64,000 bases of DNA from the NCBI RefSeq assembly GCF_900114355.1, contig NZ_FOSS01000001.1, forward strand, positions 310,001 through 374,000, given 5' to 3'. Positions 47,105 through 62,729 of the stretch are shown here, piece after piece. The notes beneath the pieces were generated by a model that searched no databases, was not told the DNA's origin, and saw nothing but the letters and a program-made list of their open reading frames with translations. Origin of the DNA: Lysobacter sp. cf310 (GTDB taxonomy: Bacteria; Pseudomonadota; Gammaproteobacteria; Xanthomonadales; Xanthomonadaceae). Numbering within the stretch: the first letter of the stretch is position 1; each line of letters opens with the position of its first letter. The position numbers and the translations under genes are program-made.

Positions 47105-48304
47105 TTACTCGACGCCCTCGCCGGCCTCGACCGCGGCTCGCACCGCCTGCGTGTCCTGACCCAGCATCGGCGCGGCGAACGGCGCCGGCCCCGGGGTGCG
47201 GCCGAACTTGATCGATTGCGCGACCGCGCGGTAGTGGCCCACGCGCGGGTGCTCGATGGTGCCGACGATGCCTTCGGCCAGCACTTGCGGGTGTTCGAAC
47301 ATGTCCTCGATGCGACGCGCGGCCGCGCAGGGCACCTCGTCGCCGAACAAGGCCTCCCATTCCATCGCGCCGCGCTGCGCCAAGGCCTCGTGCAGGCGCG
47401 GCACGATCTCGGCGGCGTGCTCGGCGCGCTTGCGCACGCTGTCGTAGCGCGCCTGCACCGCCAGATCGTCCAAGCCGGTCTTCTCGCACAGCGCTTTCCA
47501 GAAACGCGGCGTGTTCGCGGAAATATAGATATGGCCATCGCGGGTGGGATGGATGCCGGTGACGCCGCCGGAGCGCATGTCGCGGCCGATGTCCAGCGAC
47601 TCGCCCTCGGCCCAGATCATGCGCGCCGACTGCATGGTCAAGGCGCTGCGCAGCAGCGACACCCCGACGAACTGGCCCAGGCCGCTGCGCTCGCGCTCGT
47701 ACAGCGCCGAGGACACGCCCGCGGCCAGCAACGCCGCGGTGTAGTAGTCGACGACCGAGCCGTAGATGATCTCCGGCGGCCCGCCGCGTCGGCCCTGCAA
47801 CGCGCACATGCCGGTCATGGTCTGCAGCACCTGGTCGTAACCGGCCTTGTCCTTCATCGGCCCGGTCTCGCCATAGCCGGTGACCGCGCAGTAGATCAGG
47901 CGCGGATTGATCAGGCTCAGGCGTTCGAAATCGATCCCCAGCCGCTGCGGCACGCTAGGCCGGAAGTTGTGCACCAGGACGTCGGCGTCGCGCACCAGCC
48001 GTAGCAGCACGGCGTGATCGGCGGCCTGCTTGAGATCCAGCACCATGCCGCGCTTGCTGCGATTCACGCCCAGGAAGGCGCGGCTTTCGCTGGGCAGGGT
48101 CGACGGATACTGGCGCAGATTGTCGCCATCGGGCGGCTCGATCTTGATCACGTCCGCGCCCTGATCGGCCAGCAGCGCGCAACCGTAAGGGCCGGCGATA
48201 TAAGCGCTCAGGTCGAGCACGCGCACGCCGGCGAGCGGCCCCGCCGGGGCGTCGCGCCCGCTGCTGGGGTCAGGCCGAAATGCGTCCATACGCTGCGCGT
48301 CCAT
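47105..48304 (-). CDS. CaiB/BaiF family (class III) CoA-transferase
   Basis: A 399-residue protein started at the ATG with AGGAG 5 nt upstream; a longer frame upstream was rejected. Family blocks are LAGVRVLDLSAYIAGPYGCALLADQGADVIKIEPPDGD, LDLKQAADHAVLLRLVRDADVLVHNFRP, and DKAGYDQVLQTMTG with the aspartate that forms the acyl-enzyme anhydride. It transfers CoA between carboxylic acids. It is the last gene of the minus-strand cluster, 99 nt after the GH127 gene, with its own copy of the shared motif in that gap. With the CitE-type lyase at 61.8 kb it suggests activation and cleavage of an acid. Acid unknown. Confidence 0.93.
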   Translation of the reverse strand: MDAQRMDAFRPDPSSGRDAPAGPLAGVRVLDLSAYIAGPYGCALLADQGADVIKIEPPDGDNLRQYPSTLPSESRAFLGVNRSKRGMVLDLKQAADHAVLLRLVRDADVLVHNFRPSVPQRLGIDFERLSLINPRLIYCAVTGYGETGPMKDKAGYDQVLQTMTGMCALQGRRGGPPEIIYGSVVDYYTAALLAAGVSSALYERERSGLGQFVGVSLLRSALTMQSARMIWAEGESLDIGRDMRSGGVTGIHPTRDGHIYISANTPRFWKALCEKTGLDDLAVQARYDSVRKRAEHAAEIVPRLHEALAQRGAMEWEALFGDEVPCAAARRIEDMFEHPQVLAEGIVGTIEHPRVGHYRAVAQSIKFGRTPGPAPFAAPMLGQDTQAVRAAVEAGEGVE

Positions 48305-48370
48305 GAAACTCCTGGCGTGATGCTGTCTGCACTGTGCCGCGCGCCCGCGCAAAGAAACAGGCAGGCCGCA

Positions 48371-48399
48371 TATGTTCTGGCGCCACAAAATCTTGCTTG
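48371..48399 (-). promoter_or_regulatory. Shared spaced motif upstream of caiB
   Basis: Plus-strand TATGTTC (48371-48377), 15 nt, TTGCTTG (48393-48399). Identical arms with identical spacing occur upstream of the TonB receptor gene, and a variant upstream of citE. It lies 66 nt before the caiB start, between the GH127 stop and caiB. A candidate operator or promoter of the cluster's regulon. Confidence 0.55.
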
Positions 48400-48403
48400 G
48401 CGC

Positions 48404-50248
48404 TCATGGTGTGGGCTCCGGCGCCAGACTCATCCAGGTCAGGCGCCAGGCCCCGTCGACGCGGCCGCCCGCGCGGTAGTACGGAGCGAACACCAGCGGC
48501 GAGCGGTAGCCCAGGCGCAGCTCCAGCAGCGGCGCGCCCTGCTCGTCCTGCGTCGCGCACAGCCAGGTCGCCTCCGGCTGCGACGGCAGGCGCAGGGTCT
48601 CCTCGGTCTTGAAGCCGTCGATCAGGCCCGAGGCGTAAGCCAGCGGCCCGCGGGTGATGCCCAGGTACTCGTGGCGCAGGACTTCCTGGCGAACCGGGCT
48701 GCCGTCGGGCGCACGCGATTCCTGCACGTTGCGGCTGAGCGCGCGATGGCTGCGCGGCGCCATCGGGAACCGCGCGATCACCTCATCGCCGTCGCGCCAG
48801 ACGCGGTCGAGCACGGCATAGCCGCCGTGCTCGACCACGGCGCTGGCCGTATCGCCGTCGACGCGCACGGTCGCGTCTTCGGCCCAGGACGGCAGGCGCA
48901 AGCTCAAGGCGAATCGCGCTTCGCGCTCCAGGCCGATGCGCAGGCGCACCTCGCCATCGAACGGATAGGCGGTCGCCTGTTCCAGACGCACCCGACCGGC
49001 CGCGCCCAATTCGATCTCGGCCCGCCCGGGGCCGTACAGATTCACCGCGATGCCCTCGTCGCCGCTGCGCGCATAGGCGATCGCAGGCAGTTCCTCCAGC
49101 GCCATCGCGCCGCTGGACTTGCAGCAGCGCCAATAGGTGGTGTGCACGCGGCGCCCGTTCGGGAACACGTAGTAGCACCAGTCCTCGCCGTTGGGCGCCT
49201 GCGCGCCGAGCAGGTCGTTGTAGGCCGAGCGCTCGATCTCTTCGGCATAGCGCGCCTCGCCGGAGATCGTGAGCAATTCGCGGTTCAACTGGATCCAGGC
49301 CAGAGTCGAACAGGTCTCGACGTAACCGTGAGGACTGAACGCGCCGGGCGCATTGAACACTTCGCGCGAGCGGTGGGCGACGCCGCCCCAGGGGCCGCCG
49401 CCTAGCGTCAGATGATGGTCGCGGATGCTGCGCCACAGGCCTTCGACCGCATCGCGATAGGCGGCGATGCCGGTGGCCCGATGCAGCTTGGCCAGGCCGA
49501 CCAGGTTCCAGGCCAACTGGTAGGCCTTGCCGGTCGCGATCTCGGCTGCGTCGACGCCGGCCAGGGCGCGGCTGAGCAAGGCCAGCTCCGGGTGACGATC
49601 GGCCTGCTCCAGCACCGTCGTCGCCAGATCCAGATAACGCCGCTCGCCGGTGGCGAAGTACAGCTCCGTCGCCGGATCCATCAGCACCGTCGCCGACATG
49701 CCGTGATGGTTGCCGAGCTCGGTGATGTCGATGCCGCCCTCGCCTAGGGCGCGCGCGCACAGATCGCCGATGCGGCGCGCGGCTTCGAGATAGCGCGGCT
49801 CGGGGAAGTGTCGGTGGATTTCGAGAAAGCCGAGGATCAGATAAGCGTGTGTCCAGATGTCCCAGGTCCGCACGCTGGGCGCGCCGTCCCAACTCAGCGG
49901 TTTGGGCGGCTGCTTGCGCATGAAACGCCGTTCCGGCGCGTAAGTGCCCAGATACCCGTCGGCTTCCTGACTGTCGACCAGAAAATCGGCCACGCGTCGC
50001 AGCCGCGCCAGCAGCTGCGCATCGCCGGAGCGCGCGGCGGCCTTGGCCGCGGCGACCATCCATTTGCCGGCATGCTCGCCGTACCAATCGCCCTCGTGGT
50101 TCTGCGCGCGCCGCTCCGGCGCGAAGATCTCGATCGCCGGGCTGCGCTCGTCGACGATGAAATGCGACAGGCGCCCGGCCAGATTGGCGTCCAGGGCCTC
50201 GCCCAGCAGGCCTTCGAGACGAACGGCGGCGGCGGGAATGCGCTGCAT
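48404..50248 (-). CDS. Glycoside hydrolase family 127-like (beta-L-arabinofuranosidase type)
   Basis: A 614-residue protein from the ATG 4 nt after the preceding stop. The fold is an (alpha/alpha)6 barrel followed by beta-sandwiches, as in DUF1680/GH127. The zinc-thiolate site is complete: E311-T-C313 and C375-C376 in YWRCCKSSG, matching Glu338/Cys340/Cys417/Cys418 of HypBA1. E296 is the likely acid/base. In GH127 one cysteine of the CC pair is the nucleophile. There is no signal peptide, so it should act in the cytosol on an imported glycoside. It lies in an operon-like series with the SUMF1-fusion, ribokinase, serine hydrolase and TonB receptor. True sugar specificity is unknown. Confidence 0.88.
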   Translation of the reverse strand: MQRIPAAAVRLEGLLGEALDANLAGRLSHFIVDERSPAIEIFAPERRAQNHEGDWYGEHAGKWMVAAAKAAARSGDAQLLARLRRVADFLVDSQEADGYLGTYAPERRFMRKQPPKPLSWDGAPSVRTWDIWTHAYLILGFLEIHRHFPEPRYLEAARRIGDLCARALGEGGIDITELGNHHGMSATVLMDPATELYFATGERRYLDLATTVLEQADRHPELALLSRALAGVDAAEIATGKAYQLAWNLVGLAKLHRATGIAAYRDAVEGLWRSIRDHHLTLGGGPWGGVAHRSREVFNAPGAFSPHGYVETCSTLAWIQLNRELLTISGEARYAEEIERSAYNDLLGAQAPNGEDWCYYVFPNGRRVHTTYWRCCKSSGAMALEELPAIAYARSGDEGIAVNLYGPGRAEIELGAAGRVRLEQATAYPFDGEVRLRIGLEREARFALSLRLPSWAEDATVRVDGDTASAVVEHGGYAVLDRVWRDGDEVIARFPMAPRSHRALSRNVQESRAPDGSPVRQEVLRHEYLGITRGPLAYASGLIDGFKTEETLRLPSQPEATWLCATQDEQGAPLLELRLGYRSPLVFAPYYRAGGRVDGAWRLTWMSLAPEPTP

Positions 50249-50252
50249 GGGC

Positions 50253-52439
50253 TCAGCCCGCATCCACGACGCAACGGAAGCCGACGCAGCCGGAGCGGTC
50301 CTTGCTGGGCGCCATCAGCAGATACTTGCCGTGCTGATCCAGCCGGTGCGCCTGCGGGAAATACCAATGCGAGGTCTGCGGCTGATACGAGCTGCCGCCG
50401 CGCAGGATCGCGGCGCGGGTGTGCTCGTCCTGGTACTCGTCGGTCCATTGCCAGACGTTGCCGACCAGGTCCAGTACGCCAAACGGGCTGGCGCCATCGG
50501 GATGCGCATCGACATCGTCGGGCGCGCGCAGGCGGCGGCCGCGATTGGTCGCGGGCACCGCATCCTCGCGCCAGTCGTTGCCCCAGGGATAGCGGCGGCC
50601 GTCGCCGCCTTGCGCGGCGTACTGCCATTCCCATTCGCGCGGCAGGCGCTTGCCCGCCCATTGCGCATAGGCGCGTGCGTCCTCCAGCGCGACCCAGGTC
50701 ACCGGCTTGCGCTCCCAACCCGGCGGCGGCGCGCCGTCGATCCAGTGACGCAGGTAGTTGTGCGCATCGCGCGGGCGGTAGCCGCTGGTCTGGACGAAGC
50801 GCAGGTAGTCCGCGTTGGTCACCGGCGTGCGATCGATATGGAACGGCCGCATGCGCATGCGCTGGCGATGACTGCGGCGCGCGCTGGTCTCCCAGGGGTA
50901 CTGCACGTCCACGCCCTCCCAGGTCTGGCCCTCGATCTCGACACCGCCGACCACGAAATCGAAATCGCCGCCGGGGATCGCGATCATGCCCGCGGGCGCG
51001 GTCGGCGCGGGCGCCGTGGGCTCGATCGCGACCAATTGCTGCGTCAGCGCGCGCCACTGGTGGGAGTACGCACGCAAAGGGGTGGCGGCGCGTTCGGCCA
51101 TGCCCGCCAGGAAAGTCGCGAAGCCCTCGCCTTCGGCACCGGGCGCCAGCGCCGCGACCGCGCCGAAGCCGCGGCCTTCGAGCGCGAACTCGAACACCGC
51201 GCATCCGTCGTCCAGGCGCGGGCTCAAGGCGACGCCGTTCCAGACATCGAAGTAACGCCTACCCTCGACATGCGGCACCGCGAACTGCTCGCCCGCGACC
51301 TCGTACTCGTTGCGGTTGACCACGGTCCACAAGGTCGCGCCCTCGTGCGGGAAGCGGCTGGCGAACACGCCTGCCTGCAGGGTGCGCTCGTAAGGCCGCC
51401 AGTCCAGGCTGACCATGCAGGCGGCGAAGCGGCGCTCGATCGCGGCGATACGGCGCAGGCTTTCGGCGTCGCGCGGGGTGAGCTGGTTCCACAGGCCCCA
51501 GATGTTCTCCCAGGCGTTGTAGCCGACGCCGTTGAAGAAGATGTATTGCAGATCGTGGTTGCGGTCGCGGCCCCAGCGGTTCTCGTAGTTGATCATGTGG
51601 CGCGGCTCCAGCCACTTGAACTTGGCTACCGGCGGCACGACCTCGTTGGGCGCCTTCTTGCCCCAGCTTTGCACGTTCCAGATCAAGGCCTCTTCGGCGC
51701 TGATCGTGGACTCCGGCTGCAGCACCACCGGATGGCCCAGGGCGTCGCAGGCGTCGAAGAACGCGCGCGGCACGCCGTTGTAGGTGTCGCCGTTGATGCC
51801 GTCGGCGCCCACCGCCTTGACCAGCTCGGCCATGGATTCCCAATCGTGGCGGCCGTCGTCGCGGGTGCCGTTGTCCCAGGGCATGGTCGGCAGCAGCACG
51901 CGCACGCCGTGGCGATGGAACTCGGCGATCGCCTCGCGCAGGCCGTCCAGGCCGCCGGGCAGATCGCCGGCCAGATCGAACTGGTTGCGGTCGTCGATGC
52001 CGATATTGGGATAGACATGCCAGATCAGCACGCTGTCGATGCCGCCGTAGCGCTGCTTGAGATCGTCCAGATAGCGCTCGACGGTGTAGCGGCCGGCGAC
52101 TGGATCGTAGAAGTAGCGGTCCTCGGCCATCATCTGCGCGTGCACGAAGTTGCGCTGCGCCCATTGCAGCTCGGGCCGGCGGTAGTTGGCGTCGTCGTAG
52201 CCGATCCGGGTCAGATGCTCGCGGCGCCAATCGACCAGCTCGGCGATCCAGTCGTCGACCGTGCTGTCCACGTCCATCTTCCAGTGCCCGATCTCGGCGA
52301 ACGGCCAGCCCGGCGCCTTGCCCGGCAGGGGCAGATAGCGCTGGGTAGTGACGTGCGAGAACTTGTATTCGCTGCGCACCGGACGGCGTTCGTCGGCATC
52401 GGCGGGTTCGGGAGCGATGGGGTCGGAGCTGGAGTTCAT
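50253..52439 (-). CDS. TIM-barrel domain fused to SUMF1/FGE-like domain
   Basis: A 728-residue protein with two parts. Residues ~1-470 look like a TIM-barrel glycosidase-type domain (SVLIWHVYPNIGIDDRNQFD, FHRHGVRVLLPTMPWDNGT, GADGINGDTYNGVP, HPVVLQPES) with a beta domain after it. Residues ~490-728 are a SUMF1 domain (MIAIPGGDFDF, RTPVTNADYLRFVQTSGY, WVALEDARAYAQWAGKRLPREWEWQYAAQGGDGRRYPWG, GVLDLVGNVWQWTDEYQ, RGGSSY, GCVGFRCV). The paired catalytic cysteines of formylglycine-generating enzyme after RGGS are missing, so FGE activity is unlikely. No signal peptide. The SUMF1 part may bind carbohydrate or have another activity. Confidence 0.82.
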   Translation of the reverse strand: MNSSSDPIAPEPADADERRPVRSEYKFSHVTTQRYLPLPGKAPGWPFAEIGHWKMDVDSTVDDWIAELVDWRREHLTRIGYDDANYRRPELQWAQRNFVHAQMMAEDRYFYDPVAGRYTVERYLDDLKQRYGGIDSVLIWHVYPNIGIDDRNQFDLAGDLPGGLDGLREAIAEFHRHGVRVLLPTMPWDNGTRDDGRHDWESMAELVKAVGADGINGDTYNGVPRAFFDACDALGHPVVLQPESTISAEEALIWNVQSWGKKAPNEVVPPVAKFKWLEPRHMINYENRWGRDRNHDLQYIFFNGVGYNAWENIWGLWNQLTPRDAESLRRIAAIERRFAACMVSLDWRPYERTLQAGVFASRFPHEGATLWTVVNRNEYEVAGEQFAVPHVEGRRYFDVWNGVALSPRLDDGCAVFEFALEGRGFGAVAALAPGAEGEGFATFLAGMAERAATPLRAYSHQWRALTQQLVAIEPTAPAPTAPAGMIAIPGGDFDFVVGGVEIEGQTWEGVDVQYPWETSARRSHRQRMRMRPFHIDRTPVTNADYLRFVQTSGYRPRDAHNYLRHWIDGAPPPGWERKPVTWVALEDARAYAQWAGKRLPREWEWQYAAQGGDGRRYPWGNDWREDAVPATNRGRRLRAPDDVDAHPDGASPFGVLDLVGNVWQWTDEYQDEHTRAAILRGGSSYQPQTSHWYFPQAHRLDQHGKYLLMAPSKDRSGCVGFRCVVDAG

Positions 52440-52494
52440 CGGATCGGGTCGTATCGGAAGGTGCGGAATTGGGGGACTGCGGCCAGGCTTGGCT

Positions 52495-53427
52495 TCAGGG
52501 TGACGCGGCTCGCGTGGCCGGCGCGTCGTCGGCTTGCACGCGGGCCAGCAAGGCCTCGACCTCGTCACGGCTGGGCACGCTGGATTGCGCGCCCGCGCGG
52601 GTGCAGGCCAGGGCCGAGGCGGCGCTGGCGCGACGCAGGGCCGCGGCGCCGTCCTCGCCCGCGGCCAGCGCTGCCGCCAGTGTGCCGCAGAACGTGTCGC
52701 CGGCGGCGGTGGTGTCGACGGCGGTCACCGGATAAGCGGGCTGATGCAGCAGCGCGTCGCCGATGCGCGCGCAGCAGCCGCGCGCACCCAGGGTGACGAT
52801 CACCCAAGGTGTGTTCAGACGCGCCAGGGCCGCGGCGCGGTCGTCGCGCACGCCGGTGATCGCAGCCAGCTCGCCCTCGTTGACGACCAGCACATCGACG
52901 GCGGCCAGCAGGCGTTCCGGCAAGGCGCAGGCGGGCGCGGCGTTGAGGATCACGCTCACTCCCGCCGCGCGCGCGGCCAGCGCCCAGGCCTCGACCGTCG
53001 CCAGCGGCGTTTCCAGTTGCAGCAGCAAATGACTGACGCCGCGCAGGTCCGGCAGATGCTCGGGCCGCAGCGCGACGTTCGCGCCCGGGGCCACGGTGAT
53101 CGCGTTCTCGCCGTCGTCGGACACGCAGATGAAGGCGGTGCCGGTGGCGGTGTCGGCCACGCGTAGCGCCAGCACGTCCACACCGGCCGCCTGCAGCGAG
53201 CGTTCGATCGGCGCCGCGTAGTCGTCGTCGCCGAACGCCGCGAGCAACCGCGTCGGCGCGCCCGCGCGCGCGCAGGCCACGGCCTGGTTGGCGCCCTTGC
53301 CGCCCGGATAGGTCGCGAAGCCCTGGCCGAGCACGGTCTCGCCGGGCGCCGGCACGTGCGCGGCGCGCACCACGAAATCCAGGTTGGCCGAGCCCGCGAC
53401 CAGCACGCTGCCGCCACGCGCGCTCAT
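52495..53427 (-). CDS. PfkB-family sugar kinase, ribokinase type
   Basis: A 310-residue PfkB kinase. The N-terminal substrate motif is GSANLDFVVRAAHVPAPGETVLGQGFATYPGGKGANQAVA, which matches ribokinase closely. The catalytic anion hole is DTTAAGDTF near residue 245. It phosphorylates ribose or a similar furanose/pentose at C5. Its start overlaps the serine hydrolase stop by 4 nt, so it is co-translated; the SUMF1-fusion gene follows after 55 nt. Sugar released by the GH127 or TIM-barrel enzymes is a plausible substrate. I do not assign rbsK because no ribose transport genes are linked. Confidence 0.92.
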   Translation of the reverse strand: MSARGGSVLVAGSANLDFVVRAAHVPAPGETVLGQGFATYPGGKGANQAVACARAGAPTRLLAAFGDDDYAAPIERSLQAAGVDVLALRVADTATGTAFICVSDDGENAITVAPGANVALRPEHLPDLRGVSHLLLQLETPLATVEAWALAARAAGVSVILNAAPACALPERLLAAVDVLVVNEGELAAITGVRDDRAAALARLNTPWVIVTLGARGCCARIGDALLHQPAYPVTAVDTTAAGDTFCGTLAAALAAGEDGAAALRRASAASALACTRAGAQSSVPSRDEVEALLARVQADDAPATRAASP

Positions 53428-54776
53428 GGCGCCAGGCCCTGGTAGACCAGGCCGTAGAACCGACGCGCGACCCGCGGCAGATCGGCGCGATCTTCGCGCG
53501 GCAAATGCTGCAACAACAGGATCGCGATCAACTGCTCCTGCGGATCGATGGTGTAACTGGTGGACGCCGCACCCGACCAGCCGAACTGCCCCACCGAGCC
53601 GGGTTGGCCGCGCAGCGCCGGGTCCAGCACCACGTAGCCGCCCAGGCCGAAGCCCTCGGCGTCGCTGAACTGCGTCACCGGCGGGTTCAACATGGTCAGA
53701 TGGTTGCGCATCATCAGCTCGACCGTCTTGCGGCCCAGCAAGGTTTCGCCGTCCAGGCTCCCGCCCGCCAGCAGCATCTGGCAGAAGCGCAGATAGTCGC
53801 CGGCGGTGGAGTACAAGCCGCCGGCACCGCTGGGATAGGCATTGAGCGGCGCGCCGGGTTCGCGCGCGCTGGTGCCGTCGTCCAGGCGCAGGCGTCCGTC
53901 GTCGCCCATGCGTGTGATGTCGACCACGCGCGCGCGCTGCGCGGCGGGCACGCTGAAGCCGGTGTCGCGCATGCGCAGCGGCGCGAATACGCGCTGCCGT
54001 AGGAAGTCGTCGAAACTCAGGCCGCTACCGACCTCGACCAGGCGCGCCAGGGTCTCCAAGGCCGCCCCGTCGTAACCGAAGCGCGTACCCGGATCGGCGG
54101 CCAGCGGCACCCGGCTCAAGCGCTCCACGAAGCCGCGCAGATCGCGCGCGGCGTGCGGATCGGCGCGTTGCAGCAGCGCCAGGGCGATGTCGTCGCCCGG
54201 GCGGCCGGCGGCGAAACCGGCGGTGTGGGTGAGCAGGTGCCGGATCGTGATCGGCCGCGCGGCCGGACGCAGCCGCGGCGCGTCGACGCTGCCGCCGGCC
54301 ACCACCTGCGGCGCGTCGAAGCCCGGCAGATAGCGCGAGATCGGATCGTCGAGGGCGAACTTGCCCTCCTCCATCAACATCAGCACCGCCACCGAGGTGA
54401 CGGTCTTGCTCATGGAGTAGATGCGGAAGATATCGTCGCGCTGCAGCGGACGGCTGCGCGCGAGGTCGCGGTGGCCGTAGGCGCGCCAGTCGACGATGCG
54501 CCCCTTGCGCGCGATCAGCGTGATCCCGCCGAGATAGCCGTCCGCGCCGGTGGTCTGTTCCATGAAGGCGTGCAGGCGTTGCAGACGGGGCGCCGAATAG
54601 CCCTGCGCCTCGGGCGCGGACTCCGGCAGCGGCGAAGGCTCGGCCGCCTGCGCCGGGGCCAGCGTCATGGCGCAGAGCAACAGGCCGCACAGGCCTGCGC
54701 ACCGAACCAGAGCGGAGAAAAGAGAGCCGCCGCGGGCCACGGGCCCGTCGGCGGCAGTTCGGGAGTGTCGCGCCAC
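53424..54776 (-). CDS. Secreted serine hydrolase, class C beta-lactamase fold
   Basis: A 450-residue protein with a GTG start 10 nt after the TonB-receptor stop. A hydrophobic signal lies at about residues 17-45 (LVRCAGLCGLLLCAMTLAPAQA). The nucleophile motif is S121-M-S-K124 in FRIYSMSKTVTS, followed by VAVLMLMEEGKFALDDPISRYLPGF and HLLTHTAGFAAG. The second motif is FGYDGAALETLARLVEVG (Y present, usual N replaced). This resembles esterases and D-aminopeptidases of the family more than true beta-lactamases. It probably cleaves an ester or amide on the imported compound in the periplasm. It is coupled to ribokinase by 4 nt. Confidence 0.9.
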   Translation of the reverse strand: MARHSRTAADGPVARGGSLFSALVRCAGLCGLLLCAMTLAPAQAAEPSPLPESAPEAQGYSAPRLQRLHAFMEQTTGADGYLGGITLIARKGRIVDWRAYGHRDLARSRPLQRDDIFRIYSMSKTVTSVAVLMLMEEGKFALDDPISRYLPGFDAPQVVAGGSVDAPRLRPAARPITIRHLLTHTAGFAAGRPGDDIALALLQRADPHAARDLRGFVERLSRVPLAADPGTRFGYDGAALETLARLVEVGSGLSFDDFLRQRVFAPLRMRDTGFSVPAAQRARVVDITRMGDDGRLRLDDGTSAREPGAPLNAYPSGAGGLYSTAGDYLRFCQMLLAGGSLDGETLLGRKTVELMMRNHLTMLNPPVTQFSDAEGFGLGGYVVLDPALRGQPGSVGQFGWSGAASTSYTIDPQEQLIAILLLQHLPREDRADLPRVARRFYGLVYQGLAP

Positions 54777-54786
54777 TTCTTATGAT

Positions 54787-57063
54787 TCAGAACTTGATGG
54801 TGTGGGTGAGCGAGACCATGCGGCCGCGGCCGGCCCAGTAGTTCTGGAAGCCGCCCGGCGGCTGCGACCAGCTCAGGATGTACTGCTTGTCCAGCAGGTT
54901 CTCGATGCCGAGCGAGAACCGGCCCCAACGCTCGGTCTCGTAGTTCATGCCCAGGTCGAACAGGGTGTAGCCGTGGGTCTCTTCGGTGAAAGTGAAGCGT
55001 TGGCCATCGAAGGGACGCACATCGGTGCCCGAGAGCTTGCGCGAGAACAGCGTGGTCGCGCCCAGGGTGATGTCGCCGCGCGGCACGAAGTTCCAGGTCA
55101 CCGACCAGGCGAACTTGTCGGGGTTGATGTCGAGCACGCCCATGGGACGGTTCAGGCCGCCGGCCGGATAGCGCCCGGCCGCGTCGGCCGACCAGAACGC
55201 GGTCTCGCCGCGGGTGTGCGAATAGACCGCGCTGAACTTCCACTTCTCCGAGAAGCGGTAGTCGCCGGACAGCTCGTAGCCCTTGATCCGCACCGGCGCG
55301 CGCAGCAGCACGAAGTCGTTGGTGACCGGATCGATCGACAGCGACTGGCCGAAGTCGGACTTGGAGTCGTAATGCGAGGCGCTCAGCGAGCCGCGGCTGC
55401 CGCGCCAGTTGAAGCCGAACTCGGTGTTGTCCACCACGATCGCATTCAGATCGAGCAGGTCGCCGACGCTGATCTGCGGATCGTTCGGGCAACCGTCGGG
55501 CTGGGTGCCTTCGGGGCTGTCGTTGGAGCACTGGATGTTGCGCAGCGGGATGCCGACATTGGCCAGGGTGAAGCCCTCGCCGTAGGAGCCGAACACCGAG
55601 AAGCCCTCGTTGATGCGCCAGACCACGCCGGCATTGACCAGGTTTTCCTGGTAGTCCAGAGTGCCGCCGCGCACGAAGCGGCGGTCACGGAACCAGGTGG
55701 TGGTGTAGTCGTCGACGTGCATCTCGCCGTCTTCGCGGCGGATGCCGCCGCTGAAGGTGAGCGGGCCCACGTCCCAGGACAGCTGCAGCCAGGGCGCCTG
55801 GCTCTTGTACTCCATCGGCGGCACCCAGACCCGGTTGGTCAGGGCCAGACGCTGCTCGGCGGTGTCCTTGACCAGGTCCAGGCCCACCCGCAGTTCCAGG
55901 CCGTCCACCGAGAACAGCGAGGGCCGGGTCCAGGAGGTGCGCAGGCCCTGCTTGTCGGCCCGGATCTCGGACTGGTCGTAGATGCTGCCGATCGGCGCGA
56001 TCAGCGGGTCCTGACGATCGGAGGAGTTCTCGACCAGGTAACGCATGGCCTGGTCGGCCTTGTAGCCGTTGAGCACCAGCGTGCCGCCGAAGAAGTCGAA
56101 GTGGGTGTAGCTCAGCTGGTATTGCTTGAAGTCGTTGAAGGCGGCCTTGGAGCCGAAGATCTGACCGCGCTCGGAGGTGTTGGTGCGGGTCTCGCCGCAG
56201 ATCGCGAATTCCTCCGGCCGGCAACCCAGGACCTGGATGTAGTTGGCCTTGCCTTCGATCTTGAAGTGGCTGACCGAGCCCTCGATGCGCTGGGTGCCGT
56301 CCTCGCCGAAGTTGTAGCCGGCCTTGAGGAACAGGTTGCGCGCTTCCGAATCGGCGACCGAACCGCTGGTGTTCATGCCCACGCGGCGGCCGTCGGCGTC
56401 GTAGCTGATGCCGCGGTCGATGATGGAGGCGCTGGCCAGCATGTCGAAGTCGCCGTCCTTGCGGGCGAAGTTCAGGCCGAGCTTCCAGCCGTCGCTGTCG
56501 TCGCCAAACTGGGTCGAGTAGCGCGAGATCAGGGTGACCTCGTTGCCCTCCTTGGTCGGCGACGAGGACAGGTAGTTGATGATGCCGCCCGCCGCGCCGA
56601 TGCCTTCCGATGCGGAGGGGCCGTTGATGACCTCGATGCGACCGACGATGCCCATGTCGGTGAAGGTGGCGTTGCGGGTGCCTTCGCGCAGCGGCGAACC
56701 CTGCGGCACGCCGTCGAACAAACGCAGTGCGACCCGCCCGCGCAGGTTCTCGCCGGTGTTGCTCATCGCCTGCGAGGACTCGGCGTAGCCGGGTACCGAG
56801 CGCGCCAGCACCGCGGTCGCGTCCTCGGTCAGGACCAGGCTGCGCTGCACTTCTTCTTTCGACACCAGGGTGATCGCGCCCGGGATCTTGTCGACCGCCT
56901 TGGGGCTGCGCGTGCCGGTGACGACCACGTTGTCCAGGTCGACTGCCGAGGAATCCTTGGTTTCGCTTTCGGCAACCGCTTCGGCGTCCTGCGCGCGGGC
57001 ATTTCCGGAGATGACGGAGAGCAGCAGGATGCTGCTGATCGCGGCGCTGAGTGGCTTGACCAT
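54787..57063 (-). CDS. TonB-dependent outer-membrane receptor
   Basis: A 758-residue receptor with a signal peptide (LSAAISSILLLSVISGNARAQ). The N-terminal region DLDNVVVTGTRSPKAVDKIPGAITLVSKEEVQ covers the TonB box and the start of the plug. Plug blocks continue with FTDMGIVGRIEVINGPSASEGIGAAGGIINYL. A 22-strand barrel follows, ending in LTHTIKF with the terminal phenylalanine. It is the first gene of the minus-strand operon with the hydrolase, kinase and glycosidase genes. This context suggests uptake of a carbohydrate-bearing molecule rather than iron. No transmembrane anti-sigma or sigma gene is adjacent. Confidence 0.95.
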   Translation of the reverse strand: MVKPLSAAISSILLLSVISGNARAQDAEAVAESETKDSSAVDLDNVVVTGTRSPKAVDKIPGAITLVSKEEVQRSLVLTEDATAVLARSVPGYAESSQAMSNTGENLRGRVALRLFDGVPQGSPLREGTRNATFTDMGIVGRIEVINGPSASEGIGAAGGIINYLSSSPTKEGNEVTLISRYSTQFGDDSDGWKLGLNFARKDGDFDMLASASIIDRGISYDADGRRVGMNTSGSVADSEARNLFLKAGYNFGEDGTQRIEGSVSHFKIEGKANYIQVLGCRPEEFAICGETRTNTSERGQIFGSKAAFNDFKQYQLSYTHFDFFGGTLVLNGYKADQAMRYLVENSSDRQDPLIAPIGSIYDQSEIRADKQGLRTSWTRPSLFSVDGLELRVGLDLVKDTAEQRLALTNRVWVPPMEYKSQAPWLQLSWDVGPLTFSGGIRREDGEMHVDDYTTTWFRDRRFVRGGTLDYQENLVNAGVVWRINEGFSVFGSYGEGFTLANVGIPLRNIQCSNDSPEGTQPDGCPNDPQISVGDLLDLNAIVVDNTEFGFNWRGSRGSLSASHYDSKSDFGQSLSIDPVTNDFVLLRAPVRIKGYELSGDYRFSEKWKFSAVYSHTRGETAFWSADAAGRYPAGGLNRPMGVLDINPDKFAWSVTWNFVPRGDITLGATTLFSRKLSGTDVRPFDGQRFTFTEETHGYTLFDLGMNYETERWGRFSLGIENLLDKQYILSWSQPPGGFQNYWAGRGRMVSLTHTIKF

Positions 57064-57245
57064 GTCGTGTCTCGTGCTGGATTCGGATGGCGACGGTTCG
57101 CGCCGTCGCGGCGTGGTCGTTGATCGATGATGCGTGGAACCGCGCGGATCGCGCTTCGCTCTGGCGACGCCCCCCGACGTCCCGGCAGCCCTGTTGGTGT
57201 AAACGAGCGTATGCGCTCGGACGCAGGCATAGAACCGGCGCGGGC

Positions 57246-57274
57246 TATGTTCAGAGACTAGGTTTTGTTGCTTG
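57246..57274 (-). promoter_or_regulatory. Shared spaced motif upstream of the TonB receptor
   Basis: TATGTTC (57246-57252), 15 nt, TTGCTTG (57268-57274) on the plus strand: the same arms and spacing as before caiB. It lies 182 nt before the receptor start, just after the end of the lysR gene. Confidence 0.55.
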
Positions 57275-57279
57275 AGTGC

Positions 57280-57313
57280 GCAGGAAAAATGTCGCGTTGC
57301 AGCATTTTTCTGC
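57280..57313. terminator. AT-core hairpin between lysR and the TonB receptor
   Basis: GCAG(G)AAAAATG pairs with CATTTTTCTGC (one bulge) around an 11-nt loop, 21 nt after the lysR stop. On the minus strand it has CATTTTTC in the second arm. It may terminate lysR or act as a 5' regulatory structure; it lies beside the shared motif. Confidence 0.45.
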
Positions 57314-57333
57314 AGGCAAGCGCGCCGCGGCGC

Positions 57334-58218
57334 TCAGCCCTTCTGCGCCGCCTGCATCGCCTTGCGGCTTTCCTGCAGGAACACCGTGACCAGCCGCACG
57401 CGCACGCTGGAACGCGACCAGACGATGCCGATCCGGCGCGTGGCCGAGGCATCGGGCAGCGGGATGCGCGCGAGCTTCAGCCCTTCCGGCCAGGGCTTGG
57501 CCCAATCCGGGACCAGCGACACGCCCAGGCCGCGGTCGACCATGACCGCGATCGCATTGAGCGCATTGAGCTCGAAACGCTCGCGCGGGACGATGTTGGC
57601 CGCGCGCAGGTACTCGTCGGCCTGGCGCCCGCCCCACTGGTGGCGGTCGTAGCGGATCAGCGGCTGGGTCGCCAACAGTTCGTGCGGGTCGCGCTCGGCC
57701 ATGCTCTGCGGCGCCAGCACGATCAGCGGCTCCTCGCGCAGCAACTGCCATTCGCAGGTCTTAGGCAGCGGGAACGGTGCCTGCAGCACCACCGCCGCGT
57801 CCAGATCGCCCTTCTCCACGGCGTGGTAGAGATCGGCCGAATAGCCGGGCTTGATGAACACGTTGATCTGCGGAAAGGTCTCGACCATGCGCGCGAGCAC
57901 GTCGGGCAGCATGCCGGCCAGGGCGGTCGGGCACGCGCCCAGACGCAGCTCGCCGGAGACCCCGCTCTCGTTGGCCACGCTGCGCAGGTCTGCGACGCTG
58001 CGCAGCAGCTCGCGCGTGCGCGACAGGATCCGCGAACCTTCCTCGGTCACGCTGACGGTACGGCCGACGCGTGCGATCAGCGGCGCGCCGATCTCGCGCT
58101 CCAGGGTGCGGATCTGCTGGGCGACCGCGGCCGGGGTGATCCCGAGCACGCGCGCCGCCGCGGCCATCGAGCCCTGGTCGACCACGGTTACGAAGGTGTG
58201 CAGGAACTGAGTTTCCAC
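57334..58218 (-). CDS. LysR-family transcriptional regulator
   Basis: A 294-residue LysR protein. N-terminal winged HTH: METQFLHTFVTVVDQGSMAAAARVLGITPAAVAQQIRTLEREIGAPLIARVGRTVSVTEEG. The C-terminal effector-binding domain has the usual two-lobe pattern (ELRLGACPTALAGMLPDVLARMVETFP). It is divergent from phyH and lies upstream of the TonB-receptor operon. It is the most likely regulator of the cluster. Whether it binds the shared TATGTTC-N15-TTGCTTG motif is not known. Confidence 0.94.
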   Translation of the reverse strand: METQFLHTFVTVVDQGSMAAAARVLGITPAAVAQQIRTLEREIGAPLIARVGRTVSVTEEGSRILSRTRELLRSVADLRSVANESGVSGELRLGACPTALAGMLPDVLARMVETFPQINVFIKPGYSADLYHAVEKGDLDAAVVLQAPFPLPKTCEWQLLREEPLIVLAPQSMAERDPHELLATQPLIRYDRHQWGGRQADEYLRAANIVPRERFELNALNAIAVMVDRGLGVSLVPDWAKPWPEGLKLARIPLPDASATRRIGIVWSRSSVRVRLVTVFLQESRKAMQAAQKG

Positions 58219-58317
58219 GAGACCTTAATCCGTTGAAGGCTGGAGGTTACTCCAGCGCCGATGCCCGCACCATGCGCGCGGCCGCGCGTCGCCGACCGCT
58301 GTGCGTGGCGAACGCCA

Positions 58318-58346
58318 AAGCCAAGCTGGGCCAGCGTCTGAATATA
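58318..58346 (+). promoter_or_regulatory. Weak fourth copy of the shared motif upstream of phyH
   Basis: Read in the direction of phyH: AAGCCAA (58318-58324), 15 nt, GAATATA (58340-58346). The other copies read CAAGCAA-N15-GAACATA in the direction of their genes. The match is partial, but the distance to the start codon (73 nt) is like that of the caiB and citE copies (66 and 77 nt). Confidence 0.25.
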
Positions 58347-58419
58347 GCGTTGGCGTCTTGGTGCGGCGCGCAGGCAGGCGAACAATCGGCGTCACACCCC
58401 AACTCAGCCGGACGCCCGC

Positions 58420-59211
58420 ATGGCCTACCCGATCGCAAGCGCCGAACAGATCGCGTTCTTCGCCGAGCACGGTTACTTGATCGTGCGCCAGGCGTTGCCG
58501 GCGCAGGAGCTGGACCGGATCGAGGCGCGCTGCGACCTGCTGCTGGCGGATAAGGAACGCCTGGCCAACGACTGGGCCTGGGACCGCAGCGAAAGCAAGG
58601 AGCGGCGCTCGTTCCGCATCGTGCAATCCTCGCCCACCCTGGTCTGGCCGGAGATCGCCGAGCAGCCGTACCGGGCCTGGCTGGCCGCCTTCGCGTCTTC
58701 GTTGATGGAGCGCGACATGGCGTTCTGGTACGACCAGTTCCTGGGCAAACCGCCGGGCAACAGTTCGCCCACCTACTGGCATCAGGACGAGGGCTACTGG
58801 GGGCGCAACCTGTTCGATCGCGGCATCACCGGCTGGATCCCGCTGCAGGACGTCGACACGGTCAACGGTTGCATGCATTTCGTCGACGGCGGCCACCGCG
58901 AAGGCGTGCTGCGCCATCGGCTGGTCGAAGGCGTGCAGAGCGACCTGCTGGTGTGCGAGGTCGACGAAGCTCGCGCCGTGCCCTGTCCGATGGCGCGCGG
59001 CGATGTCGCCTTCCATCATTCCAAGACCCCGCACATGAGCAACGCCAACACCGGCAGCGCCTGGCGCAAGGCCGTGACCAATCATCTGCAGGCCGCGGAC
59101 GGCACCGGTTCGGGCGATCACTACCCCTGGCGGGTGAAGGTGAACCAGCAGACCGGCGAACGCAGCGTGCCCGGCGGCGGCGCGCACGATCCGGGCGCGA
59201 TGGGCATGTAG
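58420..59211 (+). CDS. PhyH-family non-heme iron, 2-oxoglutarate dioxygenase
   Basis: A 263-residue phytanoyl-CoA dioxygenase family protein. The iron ligands are H121 and D123 in YWHQDEGYW and H205 in KTPHMSNANTGSAWRKAV; R216 is the likely 2-oxoglutarate anchor. Length fits the small bacterial members. No signal peptide, so it is cytosolic. It is divergently transcribed from lysR and faces the symporter gene tail to tail. It could hydroxylate the acid or another part of the imported compound before CoA transfer and cleavage. Substrate unknown; it could equally act on an amino-acid derivative. Confidence 0.92.
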   Translation: MAYPIASAEQIAFFAEHGYLIVRQALPAQELDRIEARCDLLLADKERLANDWAWDRSESKERRSFRIVQSSPTLVWPEIAEQPYRAWLAAFASSLMERDMAFWYDQFLGKPPGNSSPTYWHQDEGYWGRNLFDRGITGWIPLQDVDTVNGCMHFVDGGHREGVLRHRLVEGVQSDLLVCEVDEARAVPCPMARGDVAFHHSKTPHMSNANTGSAWRKAVTNHLQAADGTGSGDHYPWRVKVNQQTGERSVPGGGAHDPGAMGM

Positions 59212-59318
59212 CGCCGCTCGCGGCGCGGCTCGACGAGGCGCCAGCGGCGCTCCGTTCGCCCGACCCTGGATCATCCAGTCCCTAGCCCTTGCCCTTGGGC
59301 CGGTCCGCCACGCCCGGC

Positions 59319-61775
59319 TCAGACATCGCTGACGCGGTCGCGATAGATCGTCAGACCCTTCAGCGATCGCGTCGGCGCCGGGAAGAACAGGCTGGCGACG
59401 TAGCCGATCACGATGCACAGCAGGATCGAGATCGCCAGGTAGAAGTACGGATGCACCATGTCGAAGGACCAGATCACCAGGGTCAGTACGATGCTGGCGC
59501 CGATGCCGATCGCCACGCCCGGCGAATTGGCGCGGCGGGTGAACATGCCCAGGGTGTAGGCGCCCGCGAAGCCGCCGCCGAGCAGGCCGGCCAGCTCGAT
59601 CGAGACGTCGAACAGCGAATGGATGTCGAAGCGCGACAGCACCAGCGCGGTGGCGATGCCGACCAGGCCCACCACCACGGTCATGATCTCGGCGAAAAAC
59701 ACGCTCTGCTTGGGCGTGCGGTTCTTGGCCAGCTTCTCGTAGAAATCGACCGAGATCAGAGTCGCGACCGAGTTCATGATGCCCGACAGGGTCGCCATGG
59801 CCGCGGCGAAGATGCCAGCGATGATCAGCCCGGTCACGCCCACCGGCAGCTCGGCGGCGATGAACATCGGGAAGGTCGCGTCGATCGGCAGCAGCGGGTT
59901 CATCCGCTCCGGGTTGGCCTTGTAGTAGACGAACAAGGCCGTGCCGATGGTGTAGAAGATGATGCCGCCGGGGATCATGATCGCCGCGAAGGCCCAGATC
60001 GACCGCCCGGCCTCGCGGTCGGACTTGGTCGACAGGGTGCGCTGCATCAGCACCTGGTCCTTGGGGAAGGTCAGCACCACTTCGAACAGCACCAGGAAGA
60101 TGAAGCCCCAGACCGTGGCCTTGGTCAGGTCGAAGCTGAAATCGAAGGTGTGCATCTTGTTCTCGGCCATCGCCGCCGACCAGAACTCGCCGAAACCGCC
60201 GCGCAGGCTCCAGATCATGAAGCCGATGGCGAAGATCGCGCCGCCCATCTTCACGATCACCTGCACGAAGTCGGTCCAGATCACCGCCTTCATACCGCCC
60301 ATCGCGGTGTAGACGATGGTGAAGCCGCCCATCAGGATCACGCTCCAGAACACGCTGATGCCGGTGATGGTGGCGATGGCCAACGCGGGCAGGAACAGGA
60401 TCACGCTCATGCGGCTGCCGATCTGCACGAACACGCACAAGGCGCTGGCGAGCATGCGGATGGAGGGATGGAAACGGGTCTCCAGGTAGGAGAACACCGA
60501 CATCAGGTCCAGGCGCCGCAGCAACGGCACGATCCACACCGCCACGAACATCAGGCCGAACACCGCGATGACGTTGTTGGCCATGTACTGCCAATTGGTC
60601 TCGAAGGCCTTGGCCGGGATCGCGATGAAGCTGATCGAGCTGGTGTTGGCCGCGTACAGGCTGATGCCCGCGGCCCAGAACGGAATGGTGCGGCCGCCTA
60701 CGAAGAAGTTGGAGGTCGAGCTGCGCTTCTCGCGCAGGTAGAAGTACAGGCCGATGCCGATCATGCCGGCCAGGTAGACCACGATCACCACCCAGTCCAG
60801 CCAATGCAGACGCAGCTTGCTGGACTGCACCTGGGCGCTGGCGAAGGCGATCTCGCGCCCGTCCGCACCGGCCTGGGCCCAGATCAGGCCGTCGGGCCAG
60901 GCGGCCGTGGCGATGCTGCGGCCGGCCTGCGCGCCAGGCAGGGTCGCCCAGCTGGCGGTGATGGTCTGGTAGGTCGCGACTTTGGCGGCGGCGCCGGCCT
61001 CGGCGCCCTCCTCCACCAGATACAGAATGTGGGCCTGGCCGATGGCGCGGCCGGAGCCGGGCACGACGCGGCCGGGCGCGCGGCTGGGCTCGGTCCAGCC
61101 GGGCTCGGCCGACCAGCGCAGCACGCGGTCGCCGCCGCTGGTGGACGGCACCACCGCGAACAGGGCCTTGGTCTGCGCGACCAGCGAACTCGCGGCGCCG
61201 CCGCCCGGCCAGGGCGGCAGCGGCGCCCAATGCGGGCGCTCGTCTTCGAAACTCAATTGCAGCAGGTGCGCGCTGCCGTCGCCCGCGGTACCGGCGATAT
61301 AGAACGCATCCGCGGACAAAGCGCCGCGCGCGTCGCGCAGGGCCAGCGGCAGCGGCGCCAACGGCTGCAGCGCGATCGCGCCGTCGCGCAGACTCAGCTG
61401 CACCACTTGCGTCGCCATGCGCGGCGCACCCTGCCCCAGCAACAGATAGGCGCGTTCGCCGTCCTGTACCAGCGACACGACTTCGGACGCCTTCGTCTGT
61501 TCGGGCCAAGGCAGCGGCGACCAGGCGCGGGCGCCTTCCTGCAACGACCATGCGCCGTCATGCGTGATCGCGATCGCGCGGCCCTGCACGCGTGCGAGGC
61601 CGATCAATGGCGAGTCGGTCTTCAGGCTGGGCAGCGCTTGCGCACGCATCGGCGTCAGCGCTTCGGCCTGCAGCGGTCCGACCACGCTCAGCAGCAGCAA
61701 CAGCAACACCGTGCGCCACGACCTCGGCAACACGGACGCGCCGCAAATCGAACTACCCATCGCCCGCACGCTCAT
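59319..61775 (-). CDS. Beta-propeller (Kelch-like) domain fused to sodium:solute symporter
   Basis: An 818-residue fusion. It starts within the citE stop (ATGA); an ATG 15 nt later is also possible. A signal-type helix (TVLLLLLLSVVGPLQAEA) is followed by a periplasmic region of ~300 residues with repeated Kelch/propeller-like blades. From about residue 345 a sodium:solute symporter domain with about 13-14 helices follows (LDWVVIVVYLAGMIGIGLYFYLREKRSSTSNFFVGGRTIPFWAAGISLYAANTSS). The propeller resembles sugar mutarotase or sialate epimerase domains, so the protein may bind or epimerise a sugar before import. Coupled to citE. Confidence 0.88.
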   Translation of the reverse strand: MSVRAMGSSICGASVLPRSWRTVLLLLLLSVVGPLQAEALTPMRAQALPSLKTDSPLIGLARVQGRAIAITHDGAWSLQEGARAWSPLPWPEQTKASEVVSLVQDGERAYLLLGQGAPRMATQVVQLSLRDGAIALQPLAPLPLALRDARGALSADAFYIAGTAGDGSAHLLQLSFEDERPHWAPLPPWPGGGAASSLVAQTKALFAVVPSTSGGDRVLRWSAEPGWTEPSRAPGRVVPGSGRAIGQAHILYLVEEGAEAGAAAKVATYQTITASWATLPGAQAGRSIATAAWPDGLIWAQAGADGREIAFASAQVQSSKLRLHWLDWVVIVVYLAGMIGIGLYFYLREKRSSTSNFFVGGRTIPFWAAGISLYAANTSSISFIAIPAKAFETNWQYMANNVIAVFGLMFVAVWIVPLLRRLDLMSVFSYLETRFHPSIRMLASALCVFVQIGSRMSVILFLPALAIATITGISVFWSVILMGGFTIVYTAMGGMKAVIWTDFVQVIVKMGGAIFAIGFMIWSLRGGFGEFWSAAMAENKMHTFDFSFDLTKATVWGFIFLVLFEVVLTFPKDQVLMQRTLSTKSDREAGRSIWAFAAIMIPGGIIFYTIGTALFVYYKANPERMNPLLPIDATFPMFIAAELPVGVTGLIIAGIFAAAMATLSGIMNSVATLISVDFYEKLAKNRTPKQSVFFAEIMTVVVGLVGIATALVLSRFDIHSLFDVSIELAGLLGGGFAGAYTLGMFTRRANSPGVAIGIGASIVLTLVIWSFDMVHPYFYLAISILLCIVIGYVASLFFPAPTRSLKGLTIYRDRVSDV

Positions 61776-62623
61776 GCACGTCCCTTCGCAGCCAGCAGCG
61801 CCTGTGCGCGTTTCAAGAATGGCAGATCGATCATGCGGCCATCGACCACGAACACGCCGCGCTCGGGCGCCTGCGCCGCCGCATCGACGATGCGCTGCGC
61901 CGCCGCCAGTTCGGCCTCGGTGGCCGCGAAGGCCGCGTTGGCCAAGGCGATCTGGCGCGGATGCACGCAGGTTTTGCCCAGGAAACCCAGGCGCCGCGCC
62001 ATCTCCGCCTCGGCGCGGTAGCCCTCGTCGTCCTGCAGGTCCGGATAGGCTCCGTCCAGGGCGAATACGCCGGCCTGGGCCGCGGCCATGCGCAGCGCGA
62101 ACATCGCTGCGTGCACGTTGGCGCGGTCGCGCCGGTCCACGCCTTCGGACTCGAACAGGTCGCCCAGCCCCAGTTGCAGCCCGGCCACGCGCGGATGCGC
62201 GGCAGCCGCGATCTGCGCCGCCGCGGCGAGCGCGCGCGGCGTCTCGATATTGATCAGCAACCCGATCGGCCATTCGACTCCGTTGTCGGCCTCGACCGCT
62301 TCGACGCGTGCGACCGCATCGCGCAGCGCATCGGCCGTTTCGATCTTGGGCAGATTGAGCAAGTCCACGCCCGGCTTGACCACCGCAGCCAGATCGTCGG
62401 CGAACCAAGGCGAATCCGGCGCATTGACGCGCACGATCGTCAGCTTGGCGCTGGTAACGAGTGCTTCGCAGCCTACGAACTGGGCCACCGCCGCACGCGC
62501 GTCGCCCTTGCGCTCGGGCGCGACGGCGTCTTCAAGATCGAACGACAGCGCATCGGCTTCTCCGGCCAGCGCCTTGGCGAACAGCTCCGGCCGCGTTCCG
62601 GGCACGAACAATTTGCTACGCAT
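61772..62623 (-). CDS. HpcH/HpaI (CitE-type) CoA-ester lyase
   Basis: A 283-residue CitE-like lyase. Blocks are MRSKLFVPGTRPELFAKALAGEADALSFDLEDAVAPERKGDAR and LLINIETPRALAAAAQIAAA, including the acidic metal ligands (E in NIET, D later in GLGDL). It lacks partner citrate-lyase genes, so it should act alone on a malyl-, citramalyl- or methylmalyl-type CoA ester. It precedes the symporter and overlaps it by 4 nt. It has the shared motif 77 nt upstream. With CaiB it gives an acid to CoA-ester to cleaved-products route. Confidence 0.93.
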   Translation of the reverse strand: MRSKLFVPGTRPELFAKALAGEADALSFDLEDAVAPERKGDARAAVAQFVGCEALVTSAKLTIVRVNAPDSPWFADDLAAVVKPGVDLLNLPKIETADALRDAVARVEAVEADNGVEWPIGLLINIETPRALAAAAQIAAAAHPRVAGLQLGLGDLFESEGVDRRDRANVHAAMFALRMAAAQAGVFALDGAYPDLQDDEGYRAEAEMARRLGFLGKTCVHPRQIALANAAFAATEAELAAAQRIVDAAAQAPERGVFVVDGRMIDLPFLKRAQALLAAKGRA

Positions 62624-62700
62624 GGAACGGCCGAGCCTGAGTCGTCTGGGTCATGGCCGGAGTGTGCGCCAAGGCAAAGATAGCGAGCGCACAGGCCAGG

Positions 62701-62729
62701 CATGTTCAAACGATAGGTTTTGTTTCGAA
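62701..62729 (-). promoter_or_regulatory. Shared spaced motif upstream of citE
   Basis: CATGTTC (62701-62707), 15 nt, TTTCGAA (62723-62729). The central 15 nt share TAGGTTTTG with the copy before the TonB receptor. It lies 77 nt before the citE start. Confidence 0.5.

Follow-up and report, generated by a model that had tools for sequence, protein, structure and literature searches.

A spaced element in a predicted catabolic cluster

We analysed a 64,000-nucleotide (nt) stretch of the Lysobacter sp. cf310 genome (contig NZ_FOSS01000001.1, positions 310,001 to 374,000; hereafter the window), in which a 29-base-pair (bp) element recurs upstream of several transcription units of a predicted catabolic cluster. 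The cluster contains the gene of a LysR-type regulator (lysR, 57334–58218, minus strand), the proposed binder of the element, whose product carries an N-terminal HTH_1 and a C-terminal LysR_substrate domain (Pfam, 1.9e-18 and 3e-38). The other genes, all assigned by Pfam, are on the minus strand caiB (47105–48304, a family III CoA-transferase), a GH127-family glycosidase (48404–50263), glyB (50253–52442, a protein with a C-terminal FGE-sulfatase-like domain), a PfkB/ribokinase-like kinase (52495–53427), a beta-lactamase-family serine hydrolase (53424–54776), tonR (54787–57063, a TonB-dependent receptor and the first gene of its unit), a sodium:solute symporter with a long N-terminal extension (59319–61721) and citE (61772–62623, an HpcH/HpaI-type C-C lyase). 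On the plus strand lies phyH (58420–59211, a PhyH-family oxygenase). lysR is the regulator gene within the caiB–citE cluster; immediately past citE, outside the cluster, there is a PadR gene.

The original prediction placed TATGTTC-N15-TTGCTTG upstream of caiB (48371–48399) and of the tonR unit (57246–57274), and both copies are there with 0 mismatches. CATGTTC-N15-TTTCGAA, claimed upstream of citE (62701–62729), is likewise present, with TAGGTTTTG in its spacer, and all three sites indeed have the same spacing and the same orientation relative to the gene. In gene sense (minus strand) the predicted operators read CAAGCAAGATTTTGTGGCGCCAGAACATA at caiB, an exact match that also leaves a footprint in relatives, CAAGCAACAAAACCTAGTCTCTGAACATA at the tonR operon and TTCGAAACAAAACCTATCGTTTGAACATG at citE-symporter. 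The distances to the start codons given for caiB (66 nt) and citE (77 nt) are correct, and the tonR site lies 182 nt from its start. TTGCTTG does not survive as a common part: it is missing from the citE site and, in several species, from that of tonR. What the sites have in common is RATGTTC with an A twelve bases beyond it, and a right flank rich in T.

A weaker copy had been noted 73 nt before phyH. It is found at that distance, on the opposite strand to the others (58318–58346, plus strand, AAGCCAAGCTGGGCCAGCGTCTGAATATA), with 4 mismatches and a C replacing the T of the T-N11-A motif described below; its geometry is kept in 3 of 4 phyH-bearing loci. We think that this copy is a real but weak operator. 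phyH itself was found in 3 of the 45 lysR-bearing loci that we fetched, plus locus L218, and in the window and two other loci it lies between the symporter and lysR on the opposite strand. Two loci without phyH (L034 and L042) retain parts of its promoter footprint, which suggests loss of the gene.

In gene sense the conserved unit is about GCAAnAAAWnYT-N7-GAACATR; the 68 distinct sites examined were picked with a minimal pattern, and their letter counts lean toward that pattern. The unit includes T-N11-A, the motif of LysR-family operators, whose extended form is CTATA-N9-TATAG (excerpts of PMC5002191). This box is present in all three main predicted operators of the window. Among the caiB, tonR and citE sites of 19 genomes with the cluster, numbered along the 29-mer, T15 occurs in 55/55 and A27 in 53/55, although the anchoring cores used to align the sites contained these positions.

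Specificity within the Lysobacter genome

TATGTTC-N15-TTGCTTG occurs exactly twice in the 4.7 Mb genome, both times in the window, against ~0.003 copies expected from base composition for a motif that was picked after the sites had been seen. As a genome-wide probe, the heptamer motif fails: with up to 3 mismatches it gave 103 matches against 112 for a reversed-pattern control, and inside the window 2 against 1.26 expected. The mismatch tolerance originally proposed is too loose. A minimal common pattern, AANAWNNNNTNNNNNNNGAACATR, has as its only exact genomic matches the three sites, one upstream of the gene thuA and one at C6:204338 (five in all), and at 1 mismatch hardly exceeds its control (25 versus 20). 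Many unrelated copies, the outcome that was to count against the motif, thus appear with the loose heptamers and the 1-mismatch minimal pattern but not with the full profile of the element described below. By comparison, the spacer common to the tonR and citE sites, ATGTTCANANNNTAGGTTTTGTT, is found with up to 3 mismatches at three places in 4.7 Mb (control, 0), the third being upstream of thuA, ~1 Mb off. Because the loose heptamers are unspecific, the case rests on this spacer and on the footprints across species.

The site is conserved upstream of orthologous genes

Of 60 genomes searched (our own included), 19 carry a lysR orthologue at 83% identity or more. The fetched stretches of these 19 have the same cluster gene order; in two of them (G005 and G009) parts of the cluster sat elsewhere or past the end of the fetched stretch and were located subsequently. 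At tonR, 15 genomes carry CAAAACCTANNNNNTGAACAT without mismatch and four with 1; at citE the pattern has 0 mismatches in 16 and 2, 4 and 6 in one genome each. The caiB footprint occurs in 17/17 leaders fetched first and in both later ones (L177 and L181). Scored with the minimal pattern, 28 caiB leaders had 0, 1, 2, 3, 4 and 5 mismatches in 19, 4, 3, 1, 1 and 0 cases, and 34 citE leaders in 13, 6, 6, 5, 3 and 1. The possibility that the element lacks conservation upstream of orthologues, raised in the original prediction, is refuted by these footprints.

We then extended the comparison to 297 genomes of the family. A lysR orthologue is present in 50 (E 6.7e-131 or better; next match, 1.5e-96). 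A strict tonR pattern matches 42 genomes, among them 39 of the 50 with lysR, all with GAACATA; strict matches with GAACATA occur in 0 of the 247 genomes without lysR, which were read with this pattern only. The 11 lysR-bearing genomes that escape the strict pattern all carry the tonR site by the minimal pattern (7 exact, 3 with 1 mismatch, 1 with 2). Every one of the 45 loci, which were fetched by lysR and contain it by construction, has the site upstream of tonR (40 exact, 4 with 1 mismatch, 1 with 2).

A scan of named genomes with the LysR protein yielded 47 loci, 43 of them including tonR. The tonR site was found in 43/43 (39 exact, 3 with 1 mismatch, 1 with 2), although at least 18 of these come from genomes already in the 45-locus set, so that at most 25 are new. 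The genera include Lysobacter, Luteibacter, Rhodanobacter, Luteimonas, Fulvimonas, Dyella, Pseudoxanthomonas, Stenotrophomonas and others. In 44 named citE leaders the site, sought within 140 nt of the start, had 0, 1, 2, 3 and 4 mismatches in 7, 8, 10, 16 and 3 cases. Two Paraglaciecola loci (L235 and L236) contain citE-symporter-lysR and no tonR in the stretch; both have a 1-mismatch site ~160 nt before citE, followed by TAAATT at +34. Paraglaciecola belongs to the Alteromonadales and Lysobacter to the Lysobacterales, and finding the lysR-citE-symporter set there together with its predicted operator suggests horizontal transfer or an old origin.

Sites away from lysR

A sequence-only profile was built from 30 sites that included no thuA site. 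It yielded 62 matches in the 19/19 cluster genomes and 0 in 5/5 genomes without lysR, scored on the best 150 first-look candidates per genome and with many of the 30 sites drawn from these same genomes. Of the 62, 55 lie in the cluster, 4 at thuA (G000, G012, G015 and G034) and 3 elsewhere; these last (in G018, G006 and G001) are weak (E 0.25–2.65) and were treated as chance.

The thuA product is large and combines a ThuA domain with a cytochrome c-like end; in our genome the gene lies outside the window (G000:C6:1371785-1373203, L119). The gene is present in 13 of the 297 genomes, and all 13 are among the 50 with lysR. Where thuA is outside the cluster, on another contig or ~1 Mb off, it has its own site in 6/6 cases, 77–85 nt before the start (three with 0 mismatches, three with 1). 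In the seven genomes where it is inside the cluster, sharing a contig with lysR at a distance of 7–9 kb, no copy has a site within 400 nt (0/7; best match, 4–6 mismatches). It is this contrast that most strongly points to a factor acting in trans.

Within the cluster, too, the predicted site follows the promoter and not the neighbouring gene. In G005 the caiB site accompanies a glyB-GH127-caiB block situated ~660 kb away from lysR, while in G102, G199 and G009, where lysR and tonR are separated by 2, 2 and 5 kb, the site remains beside tonR. On these comparisons, the distribution of the predicted sites follows the regulator gene, off-cluster targets included, with shared inheritance as a partial confounder.

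The element lies at a fixed distance from a -10-like hexamer

A YANNNT hexamer starts exactly 34 nt downstream of the operator in 87 of 102 sites (caiB 22/26, citE 16/25, tonR 44/45, thuA 5/6), a count over related genomes made after sites exceeding 2 mismatches (2 of 28 at caiB, 9 of 34 at citE) had been set aside. None of the remaining offsets between 0 and 39 exceeds 9 sites. The proposed -10 hexamers of the window are CACAGT at caiB (48331–48336), TACGCT at tonR (57206–57211) and CACACT at citE (62661–62666), all on the minus strand and 34 nt after the operator. At phyH, AACAAT (58381–58386, plus strand) has the same 34-nt offset with a first base that misfits YANNNT; GAANATA-34-AACAAT is found in 3 of 4 phyH-bearing loci. 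The -35 boxes are poor in leaders judged by eye. Within the 29-mer itself no consistent -35/-10 pair was seen by eye, and a plain promoter there was rejected.

The operators would therefore lie upstream of their putative promoters at a fixed distance, a trait of LysR-type operators. The centre of the T-N11-A box is 42 nt from the -10 hexamer, and would fall near -55 if transcription starts 6–8 nt past the -10.

A second conserved element in the tonR leader

The tonR leader contains a second conserved element, O1, an imperfect palindrome (TGCTGCAACGCGACA, 57290–57304, minus strand). Its form TGYTGC-N3-GCRACA occurs upstream of the operator with up to 2 mismatches in 38 of 42 leaders (three more were too short), a count reached by ~1% of shuffles, and in 25 of 34 leaders of the named set (nine too short), which overlaps the first. 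O1 and the operator are separated by 12–17 nt in 33 of these leaders and by 28 nt in the other five, which are close relatives and may reflect a single event. O1 may be a second LysR contact or the site of another regulator. Were LysR to work from both elements, the gap, mostly 15–17 bp and in one group of genomes 28 bp, would keep O1 on the same helix face. A role as lysR terminator is ruled out by the loci in which O1 stays beside tonR with lysR 2 kb away (L137 and L140), and as a genome-wide probe O1 is unspecific (413 matches at up to 1 mismatch versus 294 for the control).

The LysR protein and the order of its gene

Across the 45 loci LysR residues 28–42 are nearly invariant, while whole-protein identity falls to 68%. 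By analogy these residues would be the recognition helix, and their near-invariance fits that of the site. No solved structure related to LysR was found at E up to 1e-20, and a plasmid collection held 85 records with distant matches, none spanning 80% of the query.

lysR lies downstream of the symporter on the same strand in 45/45 loci, with a gap of 54–395 nt in 42 of them. Because lysR follows the symporter in this way, the citE promoter may also express lysR. Its arrangement is not that of a divergent, autoregulated regulator gene: lysR and the symporter are co-directional, and no site was found directly before lysR in the 19 genomes.

Other features of the cluster

The symporter has ~330 residues ahead of its transport domain with no Pfam match at E 0.001, and glyB has ~480 such residues ahead of its FGE-sulfatase-like domain, again with no Pfam match at that threshold; this part of glyB may be an undescribed enzyme domain. 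Beyond caiB lie nucleotide-sugar genes (RmlD-like, nucleotidyltransferase, dehydratase and dTDP-sugar isomerase), which we did not count in the cluster.

Discussion

Taken together, these results suggest that the 29-bp element is quite probably the operator of the cluster's LysR, and that LysR activates a small regulon through it. The original prediction had pointed to the LysR inside the cluster as the common regulator, and this is the most likely assignment in view of the T-N11-A box, a site that follows lysR over 297 genomes, and the unlinked thuA copies. Judged by comparison between genomes, the system is an ordinary LysR regulon with good support. Among the literature matches listed, we recognised no paper describing it.

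We infer from the sequences how the regulon would work. LysR would bind the T-N11-A box together with the A-rich left flank and, once an inducer is bound, would recruit RNA polymerase to promoters with a poor -35 and a -10 at the fixed 34 nt. Its predicted targets, with putative transcription starts and operon extents, are the tonR-hydrolase-kinase-FGE-GH127 unit, caiB, citE-symporter, phyH (weakly) and the off-cluster ThuA-cytochrome c gene. In loci that lack phyH, transcription from the citE promoter would extend into lysR as well, amounting to positive autoregulation.

Several observations weigh against this interpretation. Some concern the box, which is asymmetric and matches the extended LysR consensus badly in its left half: at tonR, scored by hand, the right half CATAG fits 4/5 and the left half ACCTA 2/5. 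A self-complementarity check found no common dyad centre in the 29-mer over the three site classes. A27 is a C in G011 at both caiB and citE, the phyH site is without the T of T-N11-A, and the estimated centre near -55 differs from the usual -65. Others concern the regulator: its helix-turn-helix (HTH) region, taken as a whole, stands only modestly above the remainder of the protein in conservation (mean commonest-residue frequency 0.91 versus 0.85), and directly before lysR there is no site in the 19 genomes (best match, 5–7 mismatches). The comparative data also have their weaknesses. citE sites are often degenerate outside Lysobacter, and 3 of the 247 genomes without lysR match the strict pattern, the only one applied to them, with TGACCAT instead of GAACAT. 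citE is found in 0 of 8 genomes without lysR, three of them of the same genus; since such genomes also lack citE, the absence of the site there is no independent evidence. More generally, related genomes are not independent samples, and because most sites are linked to lysR and its targets, co-occurrence largely reflects shared inheritance, from which only thuA escapes.

Sequence alone does not reveal the mode of regulation, and some LysR proteins act as repressors. Repression is nevertheless unlikely here: the site lies upstream of the -10 at constant spacing and the -35 is poor by eye, as in activated promoters.

The element might instead be recognised by another regulator from elsewhere in the genome, with LysR controlling something else; this is improbable. 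The element contains the LysR-type T-N11-A, and thuA co-occurs with lysR, the one regulator compared in this way, in 13/13 genomes. The PadR gene that adjoins citE in the window would suit this alternative, but padR was found in only 4 of the 45 fetched loci, many of which may end before reaching it.

A third explanation makes the element a core promoter part, bound by RNA polymerase itself, and no operator. The A-rich left half and the fixed 34-nt distance to a -10-like hexamer would suit it, but we consider it very unlikely, because the element lies upstream of the expected -35 position and the profile finds it almost only at this gene set and thuA. The absence of the strict GAACATA form from all 247 genomes without lysR also speaks against it, though these genomes may lack the target genes. 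Finally, chance similarity magnified by selective reading, which could appeal to heptamers not enriched at up to 3 mismatches and to a minimal pattern hardly enriched at 1, is scarcely credible and, on the comparative evidence, is already refuted by conservation: the footprints span many genera and two orders, with fixed spacing and off-cluster copies at thuA.

If LysR-dependent activation is correct, the comparison defines precisely how operator and promoter are laid out in a LysR regulon of Lysobacter, Stenotrophomonas, Pseudoxanthomonas, Luteibacter, Rhodanobacter, Dyella and others, and predicts thuA as an off-cluster target. With its own site outside the cluster and none inside, thuA would be a clean natural example of regulon rewiring. 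The genes of an uncharacterised catabolic cluster would also be joined as a single unit, with fewer possibilities left for the cluster's substrate and inducer. Tentatively, the gene set (outer-membrane receptor, hydrolase, glycosidase, kinase, symporter, CoA-transferase and C-C lyase) might serve to break down a sugar linked to a small hydroxy-dicarboxylic acid by an undescribed pathway under the regulon's control, with LysR working from the two-part tonR region; we regard this as possible, though doubtful.

Comparison with known systems

The plant-inducible promoter box, TTCGB-N15-TTCGB, also consists of two blocks with a 15-bp spacer; its letters and register differ from those of our element, and the likeness is one of resemblance only. 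Known LysR proteins such as CatR, OccR and PcaQ offer a closer parallel, with differences in layout. Here lysR and tonR point the same way and the main site comes after lysR, whereas their sites are intergenic between regulator and target, and OccR IR1 is at -64 (both from excerpts of PMC5002191). Compared with the LysR-type operators covered by the same excerpts, the element is asymmetric with an A-rich left half and its centre would be near -55, the regulator gene is co-directional with the main targets and not divergent, and the sites serve an off-cluster gene as well as several promoters within a single cluster. In other respects our system resembles them, as far as those excerpts go: like CatR, OccR and PcaQ it pairs a LysR protein with an upstream site, and like LysR-type operators in general the element carries T-N11-A, lies upstream of a catabolic -10 and has the regulator gene adjacent.

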